Assembly (NCBI GenBank): GCA_025363655.1 | Contig: JANYDK010000110.1 | Span: 1-33,788, forward strand | DNA length: 33,788 nucleotides | Source of the DNA: Deltaproteobacteria bacterium | GTDB lineage: Bacteria > Myxococcota_A > Polyangia > Polyangiales > JADJMO01 | Direction of reading: 5' to 3' | In this document: positions 5,210-29,632 of the stretch, piece after piece | Layout: each line of letters begins with the position of its first letter | How positions within the stretch are numbered: the first letter of the stretch is position 1 | Notes under the pieces: model-generated | Seen by the model: the letters and a program-made list of their open reading frames with translations, nothing else | Database searches by the model: none | What the model was told of the DNA's origin: nothing | Made by a program: the position numbers and the translations under genes

Positions 5210-7144
5210 ATGTCCACGCTCCGTGTGCCTCACCGCTTGCTCTCCATCGCCGTCGTCGCGGCGCTCGTCGCTTCGCAGCGCGACGCGGCGGCCGATTGCG
5301 ACGACAAGGTCTCGACCTGCATCGACTCCGACGTGCTCTGGCCATCGGCCGGTCCGTCGACCTTCTTCTCGATCGGCAGCGGGCTCACCACCGGCAAAGG
5401 TCGCTTCGGGTTCGGCCTCGCGACCTCGGCGCAACGTCGGCCGATCGTGCTGCGAACCAACGGTGAAGCGCCGAGCGGCTCGGTCGACGTCGCCGCGATC
5501 GGCACGCAAATCAACAGCTCGTTCCTCTTCTCGTACGGCATCACCGACCGCTTCGAAGCGTCGATGGTGGCGCCGGTCACGTTCTACCAAAATGGCACCG
5601 GCGTCTCGCGCGTGTCGAACGGCGCGACCAACGACGTGCCGAACACGGCCGTACGCGACGTGCGGCTCGGGCTCGCCTACGCGCTCGTGTCGTTGCCGCG
5701 CATCGACAAGCCGGCGGGCGTCGCGGTCGTCGGTCGCTTCGACGCCAGCATTCCCAGCGGAGACGCCGGTACGTTCGCGGGTGACCGGGGTCTCGTGGCG
5801 GTGCCGACCGTCTCTCTCGAAGAGCACCTCGGCCGGCTCGTCTTCGGATTCACCTTCGGCGCGCGTCTGCGCAAGGCCTCGACGCTGCTCGGTGCCACGG
5901 TCGCGTCGCAGGGCTACGCGGCGGCCGGCCTCGGGGCGACCTTCGATGCAGAAGGTCGTTATGGATTCACCGCCGAGGCCTTCACGCTGCCTTCGCTCGT
6001 CGCCGGGGGCGCATCGCCTTTCCAATGGCTCGTCGGTTTCAATTGGGCTCCCATCTGGGCCGGCGATTTCACGATGCACCTCGGCGGCGGCGGCACGATG
6101 CGCTTCGCCGGACACGCCCCGGTGGGCGAATCGATTTGGCGCGGTGTCCTCGACTTGCGCTACGCGCCGCGCTCGCTCGACACCGACGGTGATGGCGTCC
6201 TCGATCGCGACGACACTTGCAAATACGAGTCGGAAGATCGCGACGGCTTCCAAGATCTCGACGGCTGTCCCGATCCGGACAACGACGGCGATGGCATCGT
6301 CGACGCCAAGGACAAGTGTCCGAACGACGCCGAGACGAAGAACGGTTTCCAAGACGACGACGGCTGTCCCGAGAGCGACGGTGACGAAGACGGCATCGTC
6401 GACGAAGCCGACAAGTGCCCCACCAAGCCCGAGGACAAAGAGGGCTACGAAGACGGCGACGGTTGCCCCGAAGGTGGTCCGCCGAAGCAGCCGGTCGTGC
6501 TCTGCGCCGATGGCACCTCGTCGAAGCCGGGCGAGCCGTGCGACGTCGATCGCGACTCGGTCCCCGACGCCTCCGACGTCTGCCCGCAGCAGCCCGAGGA
6601 CAAGGACGGCATCGTCGACGACGATGGTTGTCCCGAGAAGGACGCCGACGAAGACGGCGTTGGCGACGAGCTCGACAAGTGCCCTCTCGAGGCGGAGACG
6701 ATCGACGGCAAGGACGACGCCGATGGTTGTCCCGAGCCCGGCGCGCACTCGCTCGTGAGTTTTGCCGCTGGCGCGATCGAAGCGGAAAAACCCGTACGTT
6801 TCGCCGCCGGCGGGTCGCTCGTCACCAAGCCGATGGCGGCGCAGTTGATGCTCGTCGCGCAGCGCCTGCAGGGCCTCGTCGATCGTGGCGTCGAGAAAAT
6901 CGTCATCGAGGCGTGGGCCGACGTCGCCGGTGAGAACGAGAAGAACCAGAAGCTCGCGCTCGCCCGTGCCGAAGCGTTGAAGAAGGCGCTCGCCAGCACC
7001 GGCATCCCCGAGACGCTGATCAAAGCGCAGGTCGGCGACCTCGGCGATCCGCCGGACAAGACGAAGGCCAACTGGCTCGTCACCGTTCGCAACAAGCGCA
7101 AAGAGCCGCTCGGCAAGAAGAAGCCGGTCGGGGCGACGCCGTGA
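5210..7144 (+). CDS. OmpA-family outer-membrane protein with TSP3-type repeats
   Basis: About 644 residues. A signal peptide (about 1-28, ending DAAA) leads into a roughly 290-residue barrel-like region of alternating strands. Residues about 323-510 hold tandem thrombospondin-type-3, calcium-binding repeats such as DTDGDGVLDRDD, DNDGDGIVDAKDKCPND and DADEDGVGDELDKCP, each closed by a DGCP turn. The end (about 530-640) is an OmpA-like peptidoglycan-binding domain with VRFAAGGSLVTKPMAAQLMLVAQ and a variant of the NxxLSxxRA motif, NQKLALARAEALKKAL. It should tie the outer membrane to the cell wall through a calcium-stiffened stalk. ATG 5210 is chosen over GTG 5201 because it gives a tighter signal peptide. 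The stop overlaps the next gene's ATG (TGATG), so the two are probably co-translated. Confidence 0.85.
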   Translation: MSTLRVPHRLLSIAVVAALVASQRDAAADCDDKVSTCIDSDVLWPSAGPSTFFSIGSGLTTGKGRFGFGLATSAQRRPIVLRTNGEAPSGSVDVAAIGTQINSSFLFSYGITDRFEASMVAPVTFYQNGTGVSRVSNGATNDVPNTAVRDVRLGLAYALVSLPRIDKPAGVAVVGRFDASIPSGDAGTFAGDRGLVAVPTVSLEEHLGRLVFGFTFGARLRKASTLLGATVASQGYAAAGLGATFDAEGRYGFTAEAFTLPSLVAGGASPFQWLVGFNWAPIWAGDFTMHLGGGGTMRFAGHAPVGESIWRGVLDLRYAPRSLDTDGDGVLDRDDTCKYESEDRDGFQDLDGCPDPDNDGDGIVDAKDKCPNDAETKNGFQDDDGCPESDGDEDGIVDEADKCPTKPEDKEGYEDGDGCPEGGPPKQPVVLCADGTSSKPGEPCDVDRDSVPDASDVCPQQPEDKDGIVDDDGCPEKDADEDGVGDELDKCPLEAETIDGKDDADGCPEPGAHSLVSFAAGAIEAEKPVRFAAGGSLVTKPMAAQLMLVAQRLQGLVDRGVEKIVIEAWADVAGENEKNQKLALARAEALKKALASTGIPETLIKAQVGDLGDPPDKTKANWLVTVRNKRKEPLGKKKPVGATP

Positions 7145-8628
7145 TGCGAGGCCAGCGCGTCGGCTTCCTCGCGGTCCTGATCGGGCTCGGTTGCTCTTCG
7201 AAATCGAACGAAGTGACGCCGCCGACGGCGAAGGAGCCGCCGTGCAAAGTCGCCGCGGGTGCCTTCGCGCCGCTCTCGACGCGTTGCGGTCAATTCGTCG
7301 ACCTCGAGGGGCGGGTGGTCGTCCTTCGCGGAATCAACGCCCGCATCGCCGAGGTCTTCGACGAAGATCTCGGTCCCGGCAAGGTGCCGCTCGAGACGCT
7401 CCCGAAGCTCGATGCGGCTGATTTTCCCCGCATGCGACGCATCGGCTTCGACGTGCTGCGCCTGCCGGTGCACTGGAGCGCGCTGGAGCCGAACGATGCC
7501 TCGCCGCCGGTCTACGACGCTGCCTATCTCGAGCGCATCGCCGCCCTCGTCGCCGCCGCCAAGGCCGCGGACGTTCGGGTGCTCCTCGATCTTCACCAAG
7601 ATGCATACAGTAAATATATTGGTCAGGACGGGGCGCCCTTGTGGGCGATCGTCCCGGCGCCAACAAAGCTCCTCGAAGGACCGCTGACCGATCTCGGCAC
7701 GCGCACGTTGAGCAAGCAGGTGCTGGCGGCGTTCGACACCTTCTTCTCCGCGACGGCGCCCGATGGGCCCCGGCTACGCAAGCGCTTTGGCGCGGCGGCG
7801 GCAACACTGGCGAAGCGGTTCGTGGGTGAGTCGGCGATCATCGGTATCGATCTCTTCAACGAGCCGAATGCCACCGACGAGCGCGCGCGCGCCTTCGACG
7901 AAGAGGTAGGCGCCGCCATCCGCGCGGTCGATCCGGCGCGGCTCCTCTTCCTCGAACCGCCGGCGACGCGCAACCTCCTCGACCATGCATCGCTGGCGAC
8001 GAGCGCCTTTCCGCTCGGCGGCATCGTCTACGCGCCGCACGTCTACACGCACGTCTTCACGCCCGACGATGGTTGGAAGGCGACGTTCACGCTCGAAGAT
8101 TTACGCCCTTCCAACGCCAGCGCGCGCGACGAGGCCGACTCCTGGGGCGCGCCGCTCTTCATCGGCGAGTTCGGGTTCGGGCCCAGCGAGCCGCGCTTCG
8201 GCGACTACGTCGGCGGTCAACTGCAGCTGCAAGACGAGTACATGGCGAGCTCGACCTTCTGGCTCTGGAAGGAAGCGAGCGAAGGTGCCTGGGGCTTCTA
8301 CGACTTCGATCCGGCGACGTCGTCGTTCGGCAAGGAGCGGGCGACGCCGCGGAAGGTCTTCGCGCGCGTGCAGCCGCGGGCGATCGCCGGTTGGCCGGTG
8401 CGCTGGTCGTTCGATCCGAAGAGCGTTCACTTCGAGCTCGCGACGATCGGCGATCCGAACGTGAAAGCTCCGACCGTTCTCCACACGCCGACGCCCGAGG
8501 ACGCTCCGGCCGGCTATCGCGTCACCTGCGACGGCAAAGAGATCGACGCCGCACCCGATGCGAAAGGCGACATGACCATCCAATGCAACGGCGCGGGCGA
8601 GCACCTCCTCGTGGTGGTCGCGAAATGA
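7144..8628 (+). CDS. GH5 endoglycoceramidase-like glycoside hydrolase, lipoprotein
   Basis: 494 residues from ATG 7144 (a GTG at 7141 is also possible). The signal ends at IGLGC (Cys17), so the protein is probably lipid-anchored. The TIM barrel shows GH5 landmarks: LRGINAR (62-67), VLRLPVHWSALEP, LLDLHQDAYSKYI (147-159), the acid/base Glu240 in LFNEPN, APHVYTH (297-303) and the nucleophile Glu342 in IGEFGFG. LDLHQDAYS with a long insertion after it recalls endoglycoceramidases and related GH5 enzymes that cleave glycolipids, so a glycosphingolipid or sterol-glucoside substrate is a reasonable guess. The last 100 residues form a beta domain as in those enzymes. It overlaps both the OmpA gene upstream (TGATG) and the gene downstream (ATGA). 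Fold firm, substrate uncertain. Confidence 0.85.
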   Translation: MRGQRVGFLAVLIGLGCSSKSNEVTPPTAKEPPCKVAAGAFAPLSTRCGQFVDLEGRVVVLRGINARIAEVFDEDLGPGKVPLETLPKLDAADFPRMRRIGFDVLRLPVHWSALEPNDASPPVYDAAYLERIAALVAAAKAADVRVLLDLHQDAYSKYIGQDGAPLWAIVPAPTKLLEGPLTDLGTRTLSKQVLAAFDTFFSATAPDGPRLRKRFGAAAATLAKRFVGESAIIGIDLFNEPNATDERARAFDEEVGAAIRAVDPARLLFLEPPATRNLLDHASLATSAFPLGGIVYAPHVYTHVFTPDDGWKATFTLEDLRPSNASARDEADSWGAPLFIGEFGFGPSEPRFGDYVGGQLQLQDEYMASSTFWLWKEASEGAWGFYDFDPATSSFGKERATPRKVFARVQPRAIAGWPVRWSFDPKSVHFELATIGDPNVKAPTVLHTPTPEDAPAGYRVTCDGKEIDAAPDAKGDMTIQCNGAGEHLLVVVAK

Positions 8629-9440
8629 GCTCCATCGAACGCTTCGTCACCTTGGTGCGGCGTGAGCTCGGCACCGACGACGTCACCATCGTCTCCGATC
8701 CGGCCGACGCGCCGCCCGCGAGCGATTCGCTGATGCGCATCGAGCTTCCGGGCGGTGGCGTCCTCGTCGTCGTCTTCGCCGCGCCGCGCGAGGGGCTCGA
8801 CGCTGCACAAAGACGGCTCGAAATGCTCGTCGACTCCTTCCGCACCGTCCTCGAAGGCGAGCCGATCGCGCGCATCGAGCCGGCCAACTCGGGTGGACGA
8901 ACGACCAATCGGCCGCCGGCTGCGCACTCGCTCCACGAAGAGCTGCGCGCCCTCGCCGAGCGAGCGAGCGCGGTCGATGCGATGGTCATCGACGCGCGAT
9001 CTCCGGTCGTGTGGGGCGCTGCCGACGCCGATCGCGCGTCGATGGAGACGCCGTCGGCCGAGGTGGTCCGTCTCGACGAGCATCGTCCCGCCGGTGATCC
9101 ACGCGCGACGCCTCCTCCGCCCGACGTCGCACCGAGCGCTCCGTCGCCGAGCGATCACGCGATCGCCGCGGTACGTGCGCTCTCCGTGCTCCCGTCGCTC
9201 CATCGCGGGGGCCACCTCCATCACTCGGTACGCGCCGAAGAGTTCGGGTACATCGCCCGTTCGTTCGCCGGCATCTACGTGCTCATCGTCGTCTTCGACG
9301 CGCCGTGGGACGAGCTCTCCGCCGAGCGAGCCATCGTCCACTCGCTTCCGATCATCGAGCGGCTCGTGCTCGCGTTGCCGCCGCTCGATCCTTCGCCGAT
9401 GGCCGGTGCCGCGGCGATTCGACGCGGACGTCGACGATAG
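8625..9440 (+). CDS. Uncharacterised cytosolic protein
   Basis: 271 residues, no signal peptide. ATG 8625 overlaps the stop of the GH5 gene (ATGA). Two alpha/beta pieces can be seen: residues 1-85, with a strand pair around GGGVLVVVFAAPREGLD, and residues 100-271, with SLHEELRALAERASAVDAMV, VIDARSPVVWGA, a Pro-rich hinge, then SFAGIYVLIVVFDAPWDEL and a closing helix HSLPIIERLVLALPP. The VVWGAADADRAS-type segment and the repeated 'strand, VVF(D/A)AP, helix' layout suggest two copies of a Roadblock/GAF-like fold; that is only an impression. I do not recognise a family. It probably has a regulatory rather than catalytic role. Confidence 0.7.
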   Translation: MSSIERFVTLVRRELGTDDVTIVSDPADAPPASDSLMRIELPGGGVLVVVFAAPREGLDAAQRRLEMLVDSFRTVLEGEPIARIEPANSGGRTTNRPPAAHSLHEELRALAERASAVDAMVIDARSPVVWGAADADRASMETPSAEVVRLDEHRPAGDPRATPPPPDVAPSAPSPSDHAIAAVRALSVLPSLHRGGHLHHSVRAEEFGYIARSFAGIYVLIVVFDAPWDELSAERAIVHSLPIIERLVLALPPLDPSPMAGAAAIRRGRRR

Positions 9441-9502
9441 CCGACGCATCGCTCGCGGGAACCAACGCGACGCCTTCGTGTCGGCGTTATGCTGAGGCAC
9501 CC

Positions 9503-10363
9503 ATGAAACGTCGCGACTTCTTCGCCATCTTCGCTCTCGTCGGCTCTGCGGCGTTCGGCTCCGGCTGCAAATCGAAGGCGACCACGCAGTCCGAGATCGC
9601 GGCGCAGAACGTCGATCGACTGCTCAAGCTCGTCGCCGAGCGTCACGTCGATTCGATGCCGCGCGCGCTCCCCGCCGCTGCGAAGAAGCTCGGGCCGCCG
9701 CTCGAGAAGGTGCCGGCGAAGTTCGTCGAGATGCGTGACAAGACCGACGATCTGCGCGCCTCCAAGCGCTCGTTCTTCGCGGTCGTCGATCCTACGGGCA
9801 CGGTCACTTGGGTCGACGAGTCGAATTGGAAGGTCGAAGGACGGGTCCTCAGCGTCGGCTTTCCCAGCGTCCAAGAGGTCCTCGACGGCAAGCTCCCCTG
9901 GAGCCGCGGCACCGGTCGCTTCGGCGGCGATCCCGAGGATGCGCTCATCTTCATGGACGCCGCGCCGATCAAGGACGATGGCGGCAAGATCGCAGGCGCG
10001 CTCGTCTGTGCGTGGGAAGCGATCGACGTGGCGACCGATCTGCAATCGCAGATTCTCACCGAGATGGGCATGGAGAGCGCCGATCCGAACGTCCACAACA
10101 AGGTGAAAGAGCAGCGGAAGAAGCAGATGGAGCAGCCCGACGTCTGGGTCGCGATCTTTCGCGGCAAGGTGCTCTACATGCCGGAAGACGCGTACCAACC
10201 GCTCCTCGACTCGGCGAAGCAGCTCGACCTCTTGGGCAAGACGCAGAACGGAAAGTTCGTCGGCACGTTCGACGTCGTCAACAGCGGTTGGGGCGTCGCC
10301 GCGGCGCGCATCCCGTCGATGGGCGATGGCGTCGGCGTCGCGGTTTTTCGCCACAAATCGTAG
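9503..10363 (+). CDS. Tat-type lipoprotein with possible Cache-like sensory domain
   Basis: 286 residues. The N-terminus MKRRDFFAI carries a twin-arginine motif (RRDFF), a hydrophobic core and the lipobox FGSGC (Cys22), so it is likely exported folded by Tat and lipid-anchored. An amphipathic helical stretch (about 30-90, SEIAAQNVDRLLKLVAERH) is followed by SFFAVVDPTGTVTWVDES, a strand-turn-strand typical of Cache/PAS-like sensors, a middle alpha/beta part with LVCAWEAIDV, and a C-terminal sheet ending in GVGVAVFRHK. The Cache reading is an impression. It stands 62 bases after the unknown gene and converges with the tetraheme cytochrome gene, with 12 bases between stops. Confidence 0.75.
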   Translation: MKRRDFFAIFALVGSAAFGSGCKSKATTQSEIAAQNVDRLLKLVAERHVDSMPRALPAAAKKLGPPLEKVPAKFVEMRDKTDDLRASKRSFFAVVDPTGTVTWVDESNWKVEGRVLSVGFPSVQEVLDGKLPWSRGTGRFGGDPEDALIFMDAAPIKDDGGKIAGALVCAWEAIDVATDLQSQILTEMGMESADPNVHNKVKEQRKKQMEQPDVWVAIFRGKVLYMPEDAYQPLLDSAKQLDLLGKTQNGKFVGTFDVVNSGWGVAAARIPSMGDGVGVAVFRHKS

Positions 10364-10374
10364 CGAATCGACAT

Positions 10375-10391
10375 GCTACGGAAAACGTAGC
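10375..10391. terminator. Small hairpin between convergent genes
   Basis: GCTACG, a GAAAA loop and CGTAGC form a 6-bp stem overlapping the stop of the tetraheme cytochrome gene and lying 12 bases past the lipoprotein stop. There is no T-run, so it may be only a weak bidirectional terminator. Confidence 0.3.
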
Positions 10392-12094
10392 GCAGGCGGC
10401 TTCCAGCCCTTGGGCGGATCGACGTCGACGGGTGCGCCGGGCTTGCCGTGGCCCGGGCCGGTGATTTTCTCGATGCGCTCTTCGAAGACGAACGTGTCGG
10501 TGTGCGGCGCGTGATGGCAGCCGGTGCAGACGCTCTCTTCCGGCTTCTTCACCGGGATGGCCGACGAATACGGGTCGGCCACGTGCGCCGAGCCGGGGCC
10601 ATGGCACTGCTCGCACTGCACCGATTTCAGCACGTCGACGTCGGTCACCGACGAGCCACCCGGCTTGTCGTAGCCGGTGACGTGGCAGCTGACGCAGTCG
10701 AGGTTGAACTCTTTCGAATCTTTGGAGAGGGTTTCGTAGGCGTGCCCGTGCTTGGTCTTCGACCAGACGTCGAAAGCCGAGGCGTGACACGTCTTGCAGA
10801 CGTCGACGCCGACGTATTGCGCCTCGCCCTTGGCCGGCACCGGAGCCTTTTTCCCCGCGAATTTCGCCTTGTTGGTGGCGTTGACCCGCTGGTAGTAGCT
10901 GCCCATGGCCTTCTTCGCGGCCTCGTCGCTGCCGAACGCTTGGCGCACCTCGACGAGGTCGTAGCGGAGGAAGCTGCCGGCGGGCGTCGGCGGAGGCGCC
11001 TTCGCTTTTTCCAGCTTCGCCTTCATGTCGGCGAGGCGCTTCTTCTGGGTGTCGACGTCGCTCTTCGGCTGCGCCGGGTCTTTCTCCCAGATCGCGATGC
11101 TCTTCTCGAGGCCGGTGATTTGCAGCGTGAGGTCGGCGATTTCGGCGGCGCGCTCGAGGCCGCTGCCGTCGGCGAAGCGACCGTCGCCGCGGACGAAGAA
11201 GTCGACGACGGCGACGCGCGTGAGGTGATTGCTCGGCTCGACGACGAGCACGTTGCCGACGAAGCGCGGCGGCTTCGCGTCGGTGTTGGCGTCGCCTTGC
11301 GAAGACGGCGAACCGATGGCGAGCATGTCGAGATCAGGAGTTTGCTCGGCGGCGCGGACGGCGTCGCCGCGATCGATCGCCGCGAGCCCGACGACGATGC
11401 GCGCGCCGTCGGATCGGGCCTTTTTTGCCGCAGCGGAGAGGGCCTTGGCGGCCTCGTCGACGTTGACGCCGGTCGGGGCTCCCTTGGAGTTCTTCGGGGT
11501 GGCGACGCCGACGAACGCGACCTTCACGCCTTCGACCTCACGCATCGTGGTGGAGACCGCGCCGGCCGCCCCTTCGCCGCTGAGGTTGGCAGCGACGAGC
11601 GCGCCCGAAGACGTATCGCGAAGCTTGCCGAGCGACGGGCCGCCCTGTGACCAGTCGTTCTTGCCGGGAGTGAAGGCGGCGAGGCCGAGGTTCTTCAGGC
11701 CAGAGGCGAGGGCTTCGGCCTTCCATGCGTCTTGATCGGTGTGATCGGGCCGCGCCTCGTCGTCTTCGTAGAAGACCGGGCCGACCGCTGCGAGCATCGA
11801 ACGAGGCGCCTTTTGCTGCTCTTTCGAGACGTAGGCGGCGAAGTGGTCGAGGCCGCCGAGCATGTCTTTCTGGCAACCGCAGGGCTCGAGGGCGCCGGCG
11901 AGATCGGTCAGCACGTAGATGCGCACCGTCGGCGACGTCGGCTCGGGCTGGACGGTGACGCCCTTGCCTTTGCCGTCGTTGCGGCAGCCGTTGCAGGCCG
12001 CCAGGAGCGCGCCAAGGCACACGCTGAAGCCGAGGAAAGAGACCGACAAGGCGGTGCGGACGCGCCGCGGCAGGAGGAAGGTAATCGAAGGCAT
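10376..12094 (-). CDS. UshA-like domain fused to tetraheme cytochrome c, lipoprotein
   Basis: 572 residues. Signal peptide with lipobox LLAAC (Cys34). Residues about 55-320 form a metallophosphatase/5'-nucleotidase-like domain: RIYVLTDLAGALEPCGC (58-74), GGLDHFAAYV, TPGKNDWSQGG, VEGVKVAFVGVATP and DGARIVVGLAAIDRGD. The EPCGCxxxxLGGL motif recalls the UshA-like (seleno)protein group. A charged helical linker (about 335-380) leads to a C-terminal domain with four CxxCH haem sites: CKTCH at 433, CVSCH at 467, CEQCH at 494 and CTGCH at 523, resembling cytochrome c554-type tetraheme modules. The haems should be attached in the periplasm by the Ccm or Ccs system, and the protein could carry electrons to or from a substrate bound by the N-terminal domain (inference). 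ATG 12094 gives a clean signal; it is divergent from the gene at 12167. Confidence 0.87.
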   Translation of the reverse strand: MPSITFLLPRRVRTALSVSFLGFSVCLGALLAACNGCRNDGKGKGVTVQPEPTSPTVRIYVLTDLAGALEPCGCQKDMLGGLDHFAAYVSKEQQKAPRSMLAAVGPVFYEDDEARPDHTDQDAWKAEALASGLKNLGLAAFTPGKNDWSQGGPSLGKLRDTSSGALVAANLSGEGAAGAVSTTMREVEGVKVAFVGVATPKNSKGAPTGVNVDEAAKALSAAAKKARSDGARIVVGLAAIDRGDAVRAAEQTPDLDMLAIGSPSSQGDANTDAKPPRFVGNVLVVEPSNHLTRVAVVDFFVRGDGRFADGSGLERAAEIADLTLQITGLEKSIAIWEKDPAQPKSDVDTQKKRLADMKAKLEKAKAPPPTPAGSFLRYDLVEVRQAFGSDEAAKKAMGSYYQRVNATNKAKFAGKKAPVPAKGEAQYVGVDVCKTCHASAFDVWSKTKHGHAYETLSKDSKEFNLDCVSCHVTGYDKPGGSSVTDVDVLKSVQCEQCHGPGSAHVADPYSSAIPVKKPEESVCTGCHHAPHTDTFVFEERIEKITGPGHGKPGAPVDVDPPKGWKPPALRFP

Positions 12095-13780: not shown

Positions 13781-13848
13781 GGGGAGTCGCGGAGCCGCCG
13801 GACCATGCCACTTTTCAGCGCGCGCCGCGCGGGGTAGAGGCCTTGTCC

Positions 13849-14166
13849 ATGGAGCAAATCGATCTCGTCGTGGGGCAGGGCGCGGAAGCGACCGCAGGGA
13901 AGACCGTCTCGGTGCACTACACGGGCACCCTCACCGACGGGAAGAAGTTCGACAGCAGCCTCGATCGTGGCCGCCCCTTCGAGTTCACGCTCGGCGCCGG
14001 CATGGTCATCAAGGGTTGGGACCAGGGCGTCGCCGGCATGAAGGTCGGCGGCAAGCGCAAGCTCACCATCCCGCCGGCGCTCGCGTACGGCGAGAAGGGC
14101 TTCCCCGGCGCCATCCCGCCGAACTCGACGCTGGTGTTCGAAGTCGAGTTGCTCGGCGTGCGTTGA
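13849..14166 (+). CDS. FKBP-type peptidyl-prolyl cis-trans isomerase, cytosolic
   Basis: 105 residues, a minimal FKBP domain without signal peptide. All landmarks are present: [76 protein letters not shown]. The active-site Tyr, Phe, Asp, Val-Ile, Trp, Tyr and Phe set is intact, so it should be an active isomerase that assists protein folding. ATG 13849 follows a purine-rich GGGGTAGAGG stretch. The stop lies inside a 12-bp perfect hairpin. A lipoprotein paralogue follows at 14299. Confidence 0.93.
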
Positions 14167-14188
14167 AGATTGCTACGCAATCTTCAAC
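14162..14188. terminator. 12-bp perfect hairpin over the FKBP stop codon
   Basis: GTTGAAGATTGC, a three-base loop TAC, and GCAATCTTCAAC form a perfect 12-bp stem that includes the TGA stop (14164-14166) of the cytosolic FKBP gene. No T-tract follows, so it could be an mRNA 3'-end stabiliser or a repeat end rather than a classical terminator. Confidence 0.5.
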
Positions 14189-14191
14189 TGA

Positions 14192-14267
14192 GACTGTCAA
14201 ACCTGAAATCGGAGCGGGTTTTCAATTCGTGCCTCTCAGCGCGAATTGAAAAGCCAGTGCGACAGTC
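14192..14267. repeat. Nested inverted repeats between the FKBP genes
   Basis: An inner 11-bp perfect stem (TTTTCAATTCG at 14219-14229 with CGAATTGAAAA at 14242-14252, 12-base loop) sits within an outer 7-bp pair (GACTGTC at 14192-14198 with GACAGTC at 14261-14267). The stretch is clearly richer in A/T than the genes around it. It follows directly on the 14162-14188 hairpin. It could be a structured 5' leader of the downstream FKBP lipoprotein, a small RNA or the footprint of a palindromic repeat element; the sequence alone does not decide. Confidence 0.55.
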
Positions 14268-14298
14268 CGTCTCCTTTCCTCGAGAATTCCATAACATT

Positions 14299-14790
14299 AT
14301 GATGTATCGCGCGATCGCCCCTATTTTCCTGGTCTCCTTGCTCGCTTGCAGCCGAAAGGTCGACGAGCCCGACCCGGTGAAGAAGGACCCGACCCCGTCG
14401 GTGACGGCGACGGCGGCGCCTTCGGCCGCACCGGGTGGTTCGGCGAACGCCGTCGGCGCCAACGATCTCGTCAAGCTCGACCTCTTGGTCGGCACCGGCG
14501 ACGAGGCGAAGATCGGCGATCAGGTGAAGGTGCACTACACGGGCACCCTCACCGACGGCACCAAGTTCGACAGCAGCCACGATCGCAACGAGCCGTTCGG
14601 TTTCCGCATCGGCGGCGGCGAGGTGATCAAGGGCTGGGACCAGGGCGTCCCCGGCATGAAGGTCGGAGGCAAGCGCAAGCTGACCATCGGCTACGCCCTC
14701 GCCTACGGAGAATCCGGACATCCCCCGACGATCCCGGGGAAGGCGACCCTCATTTTCGAGGTCGAGCTCGTCGAGATCGTGAAGAAGTAG
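14299..14790 (+). CDS. FKBP-type peptidyl-prolyl isomerase, lipoprotein
   Basis: 163 residues from ATG 14299 (a second ATG follows at once). Signal peptide with lipobox SLLAC near residue 16, then a Pro/Ala/Thr-rich linker of about 40 residues and one FKBP domain: [73 protein letters not shown]. The active-site aromatic residues are kept. It is a paralogue of the cytosolic FKBP just upstream, with stretches such as HYTGTLTDG and VGGKRKLTI identical, so the pair arose by tandem duplication followed by addition of an export signal. It should act on periplasmic clients, anchored in the membrane. Confidence 0.92.

Positions 14791-25453: not shown

Positions 25454-29632
<4,179 letters not shown>

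Follow-up and report, generated by a model that had tools for sequence, protein, structure and literature searches.

The UshA-like protein is given by name, together with a CxU motif, in the available portions of selenoprotein surveys. The accessible section of a 2008 ocean survey separated it from those families whose redox motifs are Cys-based (PMC2398784), and a review, in the excerpt available, takes Sec in proteins supposed to be non-redox as a sign of unknown roles (PMC9312934). Two NCBIfam models carry the name: NF041198, 'UshA-like (seleno)protein' (UshA_like_PCGU), and NF049981, 'UshA-like (seleno)protein family 2', which the available extract of PMC13188914 lists as CxxU. The family is thereby catalogued by name, its function being undescribed in the extracts of the literature found, and the accessible parts of the literature on UshA-like selenoproteins, multihaem cytochromes and related fusions hold no description of haems in it.

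The window (the whole stretch of 33 788 nt that was analysed) carries on its minus strand a gene whose ATG start codon lies at 12094–12092 and whose stop codon lies at 10378–10376, encoding a product of 572 aa. A sequence-only reading had described a lipoprotein joining an UshA-like domain to four CxxCH sites, and this was confirmed, with exact coordinates and with the motifs and lipobox present; the further suggestion of that reading, an electron-transfer enzyme whose substrate is undescribed, is still an inference. The features were as follows.

10376..12094, minus strand: whole gene for the 572-aa UshA-like/tetrahaem lipoprotein (sequence; NF041198 match)
11993..12094, minus strand: lipoprotein signal peptide, residues 1–34, with LLAAC and a predicted lipidated Cys34 (sequence; pLDDT <50 at residues 1–41)
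10862..11932, minus strand: predicted 5'-nucleotidase/SoxB-fold domain and helical linker, residues ~55–411 (VIA-align to 2z1a; profile matches to 2z1a, UshA and SoxB)
11873..11887, minus strand: EPCGC putative redox motif, residues 70–74; relatives have Sec (TGA) where residue 74 stands (Cys72, Gly73 and Cys/Sec74 invariant)
10784..10798, minus strand: haem motif 1, CKTCH, residues 433–437 (sequence; Cys/Cys/His invariant)
10682..10696, minus strand: haem motif 2, CVSCH, residues 467–471 (sequence; Cys/Cys/His invariant)
10601..10615, minus strand: haem motif 3, CEQCH, residues 494–498 (sequence; Cys/Cys/His invariant)
10514..10528, minus strand: haem motif 4, CTGCH, residues 523–527 (sequence; Cys/Cys/His invariant)
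10748..10750, minus strand: His449, likely distal haem ligand (invariant in 65/65; aligns with residue 27 of cytochrome c554)
10583..10585, minus strand: His504, likely distal haem ligand (invariant in 65/65)
10448..10450, minus strand: His549, likely distal haem ligand (invariant in 41/41; 30/65 in the wider set)

The window protein is real and well conserved. Its residues 63–538 aligned with positions 30–519 of the 519 in NF041198 (E 1.1e-68), but the score of 232.2 bits was under the curated cut-off of 275, so that the protein is a divergent homologue of NF041198 and not a formal member. The PCGU/PCGC motif of the model was present as PCGC, whilst the Sec that is optional at its fourth position was absent; the codon at the second Cys of CGC is TGC, which makes the window gene a Cys form and rules it out as a Sec gene, although its own genome has SelB. 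The model was matched at E ≤ 0.001 in 371 of 377 genomes drawn from the phylum, a count that takes in ordinary nucleotidases because nine of 14 control genomes matched too. The cut-off was exceeded in 22 of the 377; 19 of these 22 best matches contained one TGA, and three of the 22 matches above the cut-off were Cys forms.

Relatives were compared in two alignments, A1 (41 aligned sequences) and A2 (the window protein with 64 relatives). All 65 members of A2 matched NF041198, and across the 41 sequences neither PCG[C/U] nor any of the four haem motifs varied; with the window protein's matches to NF041198 and Cytochrome_C554, this shows that the observed architecture is not due to chance. The related-locus search yielded at least 399 relatives, with 80 named loci among the matches listed, and CG[C/U] was accompanied by the haem region in 78 of these 80, which rules out a fusion unique to the source genome. 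The two exceptions were L105, which is cut by a contig end, and L145, which has redoxin domains instead of the UshA-like domain. Myxococcota, Desulfobulbaceae, Nitrospinota, anammox Planctomycetota, Acidobacteria, Poribacteria and Gemmatimonadota were represented among the matches listed, and homologues in Sorangium and Myxococcus are given by L073 and L090. The UshA-like/tetrahaem fusion is the normal architecture of an already catalogued family and is not special to the window lipoprotein.

In the window protein, the Pfam scan was confident only on the cytochrome part and gave no convincing match for the N-terminal domain. The structure predicted by AlphaFold2 from A2 (pLDDT 88.9, pTM 0.86) gave E. 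coli 5'-nucleotidase (E 1.2e-14) and SoxB (E 1.8e-14) as top Foldseek matches, and VIA-align superposed it on the Thermus 5'-nucleotidase 2z1a with Z 28.7 and rmsd 2.5 over 277 aligned residues and on SoxB 2wdc with Z 27.1 and rmsd 2.9 over 289. Searched against solved structures, the A2 profile matched YfkN (7.3e-30), 2z1a (1.3e-26), cytochrome c554 (5.5e-23), SoxB (4.7e-20) and UshA (~6e-20). On the predicted model, the N-terminal domain has the 5'-nucleotidase/SoxB fold. The UshA-like assignment of the sequence-only reading was thus upheld by profile search and by comparison of the predicted structure, and the refuting alternative that it had named, a purely structural or unrelated N-terminal fold, is ruled out by Foldseek and VIA-align as far as prediction can do so.

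With SoxB among the nearest folds, and the SoxB model matched by 39 of the 65 members at E ≤ 0.001, the protein could be a SoxB derivative acting as a sulfur- or selenium-compound oxidoreductase, in which the CxC/CxU pair binds small sulfur species (sulfide, persulfide or thiosulfate) directly and the haems carry electrons. We consider this rather unlikely: ordinary nucleotidases match equally well or better in the structure comparison, the matches to the SoxB model may reflect the shared fold only, and no sulfur-oxidation family was found among the most frequent neighbours.

Profile alignment to 2z1a placed CGC in the loop just past the first metal motif, which reads NDTHAHLEP in the nucleotidase and gdlrGelepC in the family, and the family consensus was without the D-x-H, G-D, GNHE, H and HxH ligands. 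When ligand positions were taken from this alignment and from known nucleotidase motifs, zero, one, two, three and four of the eight ligands were kept in 20, 25, eight, 10 and two of the 65 sequences, respectively; the window protein keeps one. Cys72, Gly73 and Cys74 were kept in all 65 sequences (Sec counted as Cys) and likewise in 41/41 of A1, where the only other invariant columns outside the haem domain were Gly and Pro. Taken together, the ligand erosion and the invariance of these three positions argue that phosphoesterase activity of the window family is unlikely and that a redox role of the CxC/CxU pair is likely. A protein that was still a phosphohydrolase, its haems serving for anchoring or signalling, would account for the retained fold, but with at most four of the eight ligands in any member, a single one in the window protein and Pfam Metallophos matched by only one of the 65, this is scarcely credible.

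The sequence-only reading had also proposed a search for homologues with Sec in the CGC position, and these were found: TGA stood at the second Cys in 36 of 113 collected genes, and GGTCT (a GGUCU SECIS-like loop) occurred in the stem-loop region after the site in 33 of the 36 TGA genes vs two of the 77 Cys genes. GGUCU is known as a bacterial SECIS loop. Minimum-energy folding of the 45 nt after TGA separated Sec from Cys loci poorly (mean z −0.56 vs 0.04, mononucleotide shuffles), unlike the conserved loop, which did separate them. SelB exceeded the cut-off in 18 of the 20 genomes with Sec forms and in 13 of the 21 with Cys forms, the source genome being among these 13; the Sec-form genomes without such a match were G265, with partial pieces, and G213, with none recognisable. 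At least three changes between Sec and Cys are needed on the tree, two of them forced by starred branches, and the window protein falls, together with the same-family L033, inside a 30-row all-Cys clade.

In other proteins a CxC can also supply two metal ligands, and on that precedent the pair might bind a metal ion (Cu, Zn or Hg) with no disulfide being formed. We regard this as very improbable, since Sec at the second position in about a third of the collected genes favours redox use and the other invariant A1 columns outside the haem domain, being Gly and Pro, also speak against it.

The C-terminal part was confirmed as a tetrahaem cytochrome, having four CxxCH motifs and matching Cytochrome_C554 (PF13435) at E 2.2e-15 with 57.8 bits against a gathering cut-off of 20.8. 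The Cys and His residues of all four motifs, as well as His449 and His504, were invariant in 65/65, the fourth motif being CX3CH in some relatives. Three His beyond the haem motifs were invariant in the 41 sequences, one of them, His549, being present in only 30/65 of the wider set. Pairwise alignment placed His449 on c554 residue 27 and His504 four residues before c554 His102; we take these two c554 residues to be distal ligands, and c554 haem 2 to be left open. Four haem motifs set against three extra invariant His, and the c554 homology (E 5.5e-23), would be consistent with chemistry at an open haem 2, which would be without a distal His, as in c554, and would bind NO or some other small ligand, with an auxiliary part for the CxC. 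This seems quite improbable, because it leaves both the exchange of Sec for Cys and the invariant CxC/CxU unexplained. No hydroxylamine oxidoreductase context was seen among the conserved neighbours of the family gene.

Of the 12 rows in the Sec clade of Desulfobulbaceae-type bacteria, 11 (L107, L108, L112, L115, L117, L123, L124, L135, L141, L148 and L149) carry a Cys where the C-terminal distal His would stand, or beside that position. His/Cys haems occur in sulfur enzymes and sulfur-cycle cytochromes, and by analogy this Cys might make a His/Cys haem; it is a point in favour of the direct binding of small sulfur species considered above.

The main support for a thioredoxin-fold partner of the dithiol or selenothiol pair comes from fusions and from neighbouring DsbA genes, which are few and clustered on the tree and give a hint of such a partner. 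Among the matches listed, seven of the 72 relatives read had tails of >70 residues past the fourth haem motif; six of the seven gave DsbA, GILT or thioredoxin matches, ranging from E 7.5e-11 (DsbA, L128) to 2.2e-4 for the weakest best match (L142), and the seventh was of low complexity. The L128 tail is assigned a thioredoxin fold from Pfam only, the VIA-align rows for the L128 model spanning residues 1–310. All six tail fusions fell in one eight-row clade, and the fused domains of Poribacteria have CPFG, not CxxC. In L145, AhpC-TSA/Redoxin domains (AhpC-TSA E 2.6e-22) are joined to the same type of cytochrome. DSBA was matched by three of the 106 adjacent genes scanned, each directly downstream of the family gene (L125, L137 and L134), and these loci all lie within one 12-row clade. 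DUF1573 was matched by four of the 106; in anammox and other Planctomycetota, DUF1573 proteins stood directly upstream in L106, L127 and L138 and further upstream in L131.

The window gene itself seems to stand alone, between a convergent lipoprotein gene (9305–10363) and a divergent gene extending to 13345, both of which have similar neighbours at the same-family locus L033 and fall outside the conserved neighbour clusters. A partner oxidoreductase, which the sequence-only reading had suggested looking for, was not recognised next to the window gene by domain search and neighbour comparison, and neither was a gene for DsbA or thioredoxin. Elsewhere in the window, on the plus strand, are a GH5-type glycosidase with a GH5 C-terminal domain (7141–8628; endoglycoceramidase-like, far below the cut-off of that model), two adjoining FKBP-type isomerase genes (13843–14166 and 14170–14790) and a serine/threonine kinase of 1392 aa that also has AAA and TPR regions (25454–29632).

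Across the family, no conserved redox partner was found among the neighbours, and housekeeping genes adjoin the family gene in most lineages. A set comprising an ABC ATPase, an ABC-2 permease, a GldG-like protein and DUF4340 lay upstream in 13 of 20 Sec-form loci (L053–L072; families assigned from one representative each), a TsaD-like gene (named by eye from the sequence start) lay downstream in 15 of the 20, and a TrmD/RimM-like block (named by eye) was near the family gene in nine of 21 Cys-form loci. Neither gene set names a partner, and the neighbourhood was rejected as a guide to function.

The gene is present once in the source genome, where a further multihaem protein matched weakly in the haem region (E 7.8e-5). 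A check for Ccm genes gave three matches above the cut-off to the cytochrome c assembly family PF01578. There were 22 DSBA matches at E ≤ 0.001 and one to VKOR, and because VKOR is present the idea that the protein replaces a missing DsbA oxidase is unsupported. On contigs C81 and C84, long frames carry groups of DsbA-like domain repeats, and on C81 the VKOR gene lies beside them.

The loss of the metal site and the joining of four haems suggest that the UshA-like (seleno)protein family is probably a redox protein after all. We propose, at about even confidence, a dithiol/selenothiol oxidoreductase that is wired to haems and has a partner of the thioredoxin fold. In this cell-envelope lipoprotein, a former metallophosphoesterase of the 5'-nucleotidase/SoxB fold would have lost its dimetal site and carry the CxC/CxU pair in the loop beyond metal motif I, whilst a c554-type four-haem chain would stand where nucleotidases usually have their C-terminal domain. 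The pair would form a reversible disulfide or selenosulfide and would give electrons to the chain or take them from it, exchanging with a periplasmic protein of the thioredoxin fold (DsbA-, GILT- or redoxin-like). Such a protein being the likely partner, the family would connect thiol chemistry in the periplasm with electron flow through c-type cytochromes; if the thioredoxin link holds, this would be a direct bridge from the one to the other in many phyla.

Set beside the described systems, the window protein resembles NF041198 in its near full-length alignment, PCG[U/C] motif and tetrahaem C-terminus, and differs as a Cys form scoring 232 bits against 275. NF049981 matched the UshA-like domain weakly in 49 of the 65 members, but has 262 positions and matched the window protein only at E 0.00012. 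The predicted N-terminal fold is common to the 5'-nucleotidases (UshA, CD73, Thermus 2z1a) and SoxB, whereas the family is without their metal ligands and has CxC in the former active-site loop and haems at the C-terminus. The haem domain is like cytochrome c554 (1bvb; PF13435), but stands at the C-terminus of an enzyme-like domain. The redoxin–c554 fusion of L145 likewise joins thiol-redox domains to this cytochrome type, with a thioredoxin fold in place of the UshA fold, and occurred once among the 80 listed loci. What is added here to the catalogued family is the erosion of the dimetal ligands alongside invariant putative redox positions, the TGA and GGUCU counts, the c554-like cytochrome part and the links to DsbA, GILT and redoxin. 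As a tentative wider proposal, which we hold with less than even confidence, the family may represent a class of thiol/selenol–disulfide oxidoreductase on a metallophosphoesterase scaffold, the dimetal centre of a nucleotidase- or SoxB-like ancestor having been exchanged for a CxC/CxU pair wired to c554-type haems, that would couple periplasmic thioredoxin-fold proteins directly to cytochromes without the quinone-linked DsbB/VKOR.
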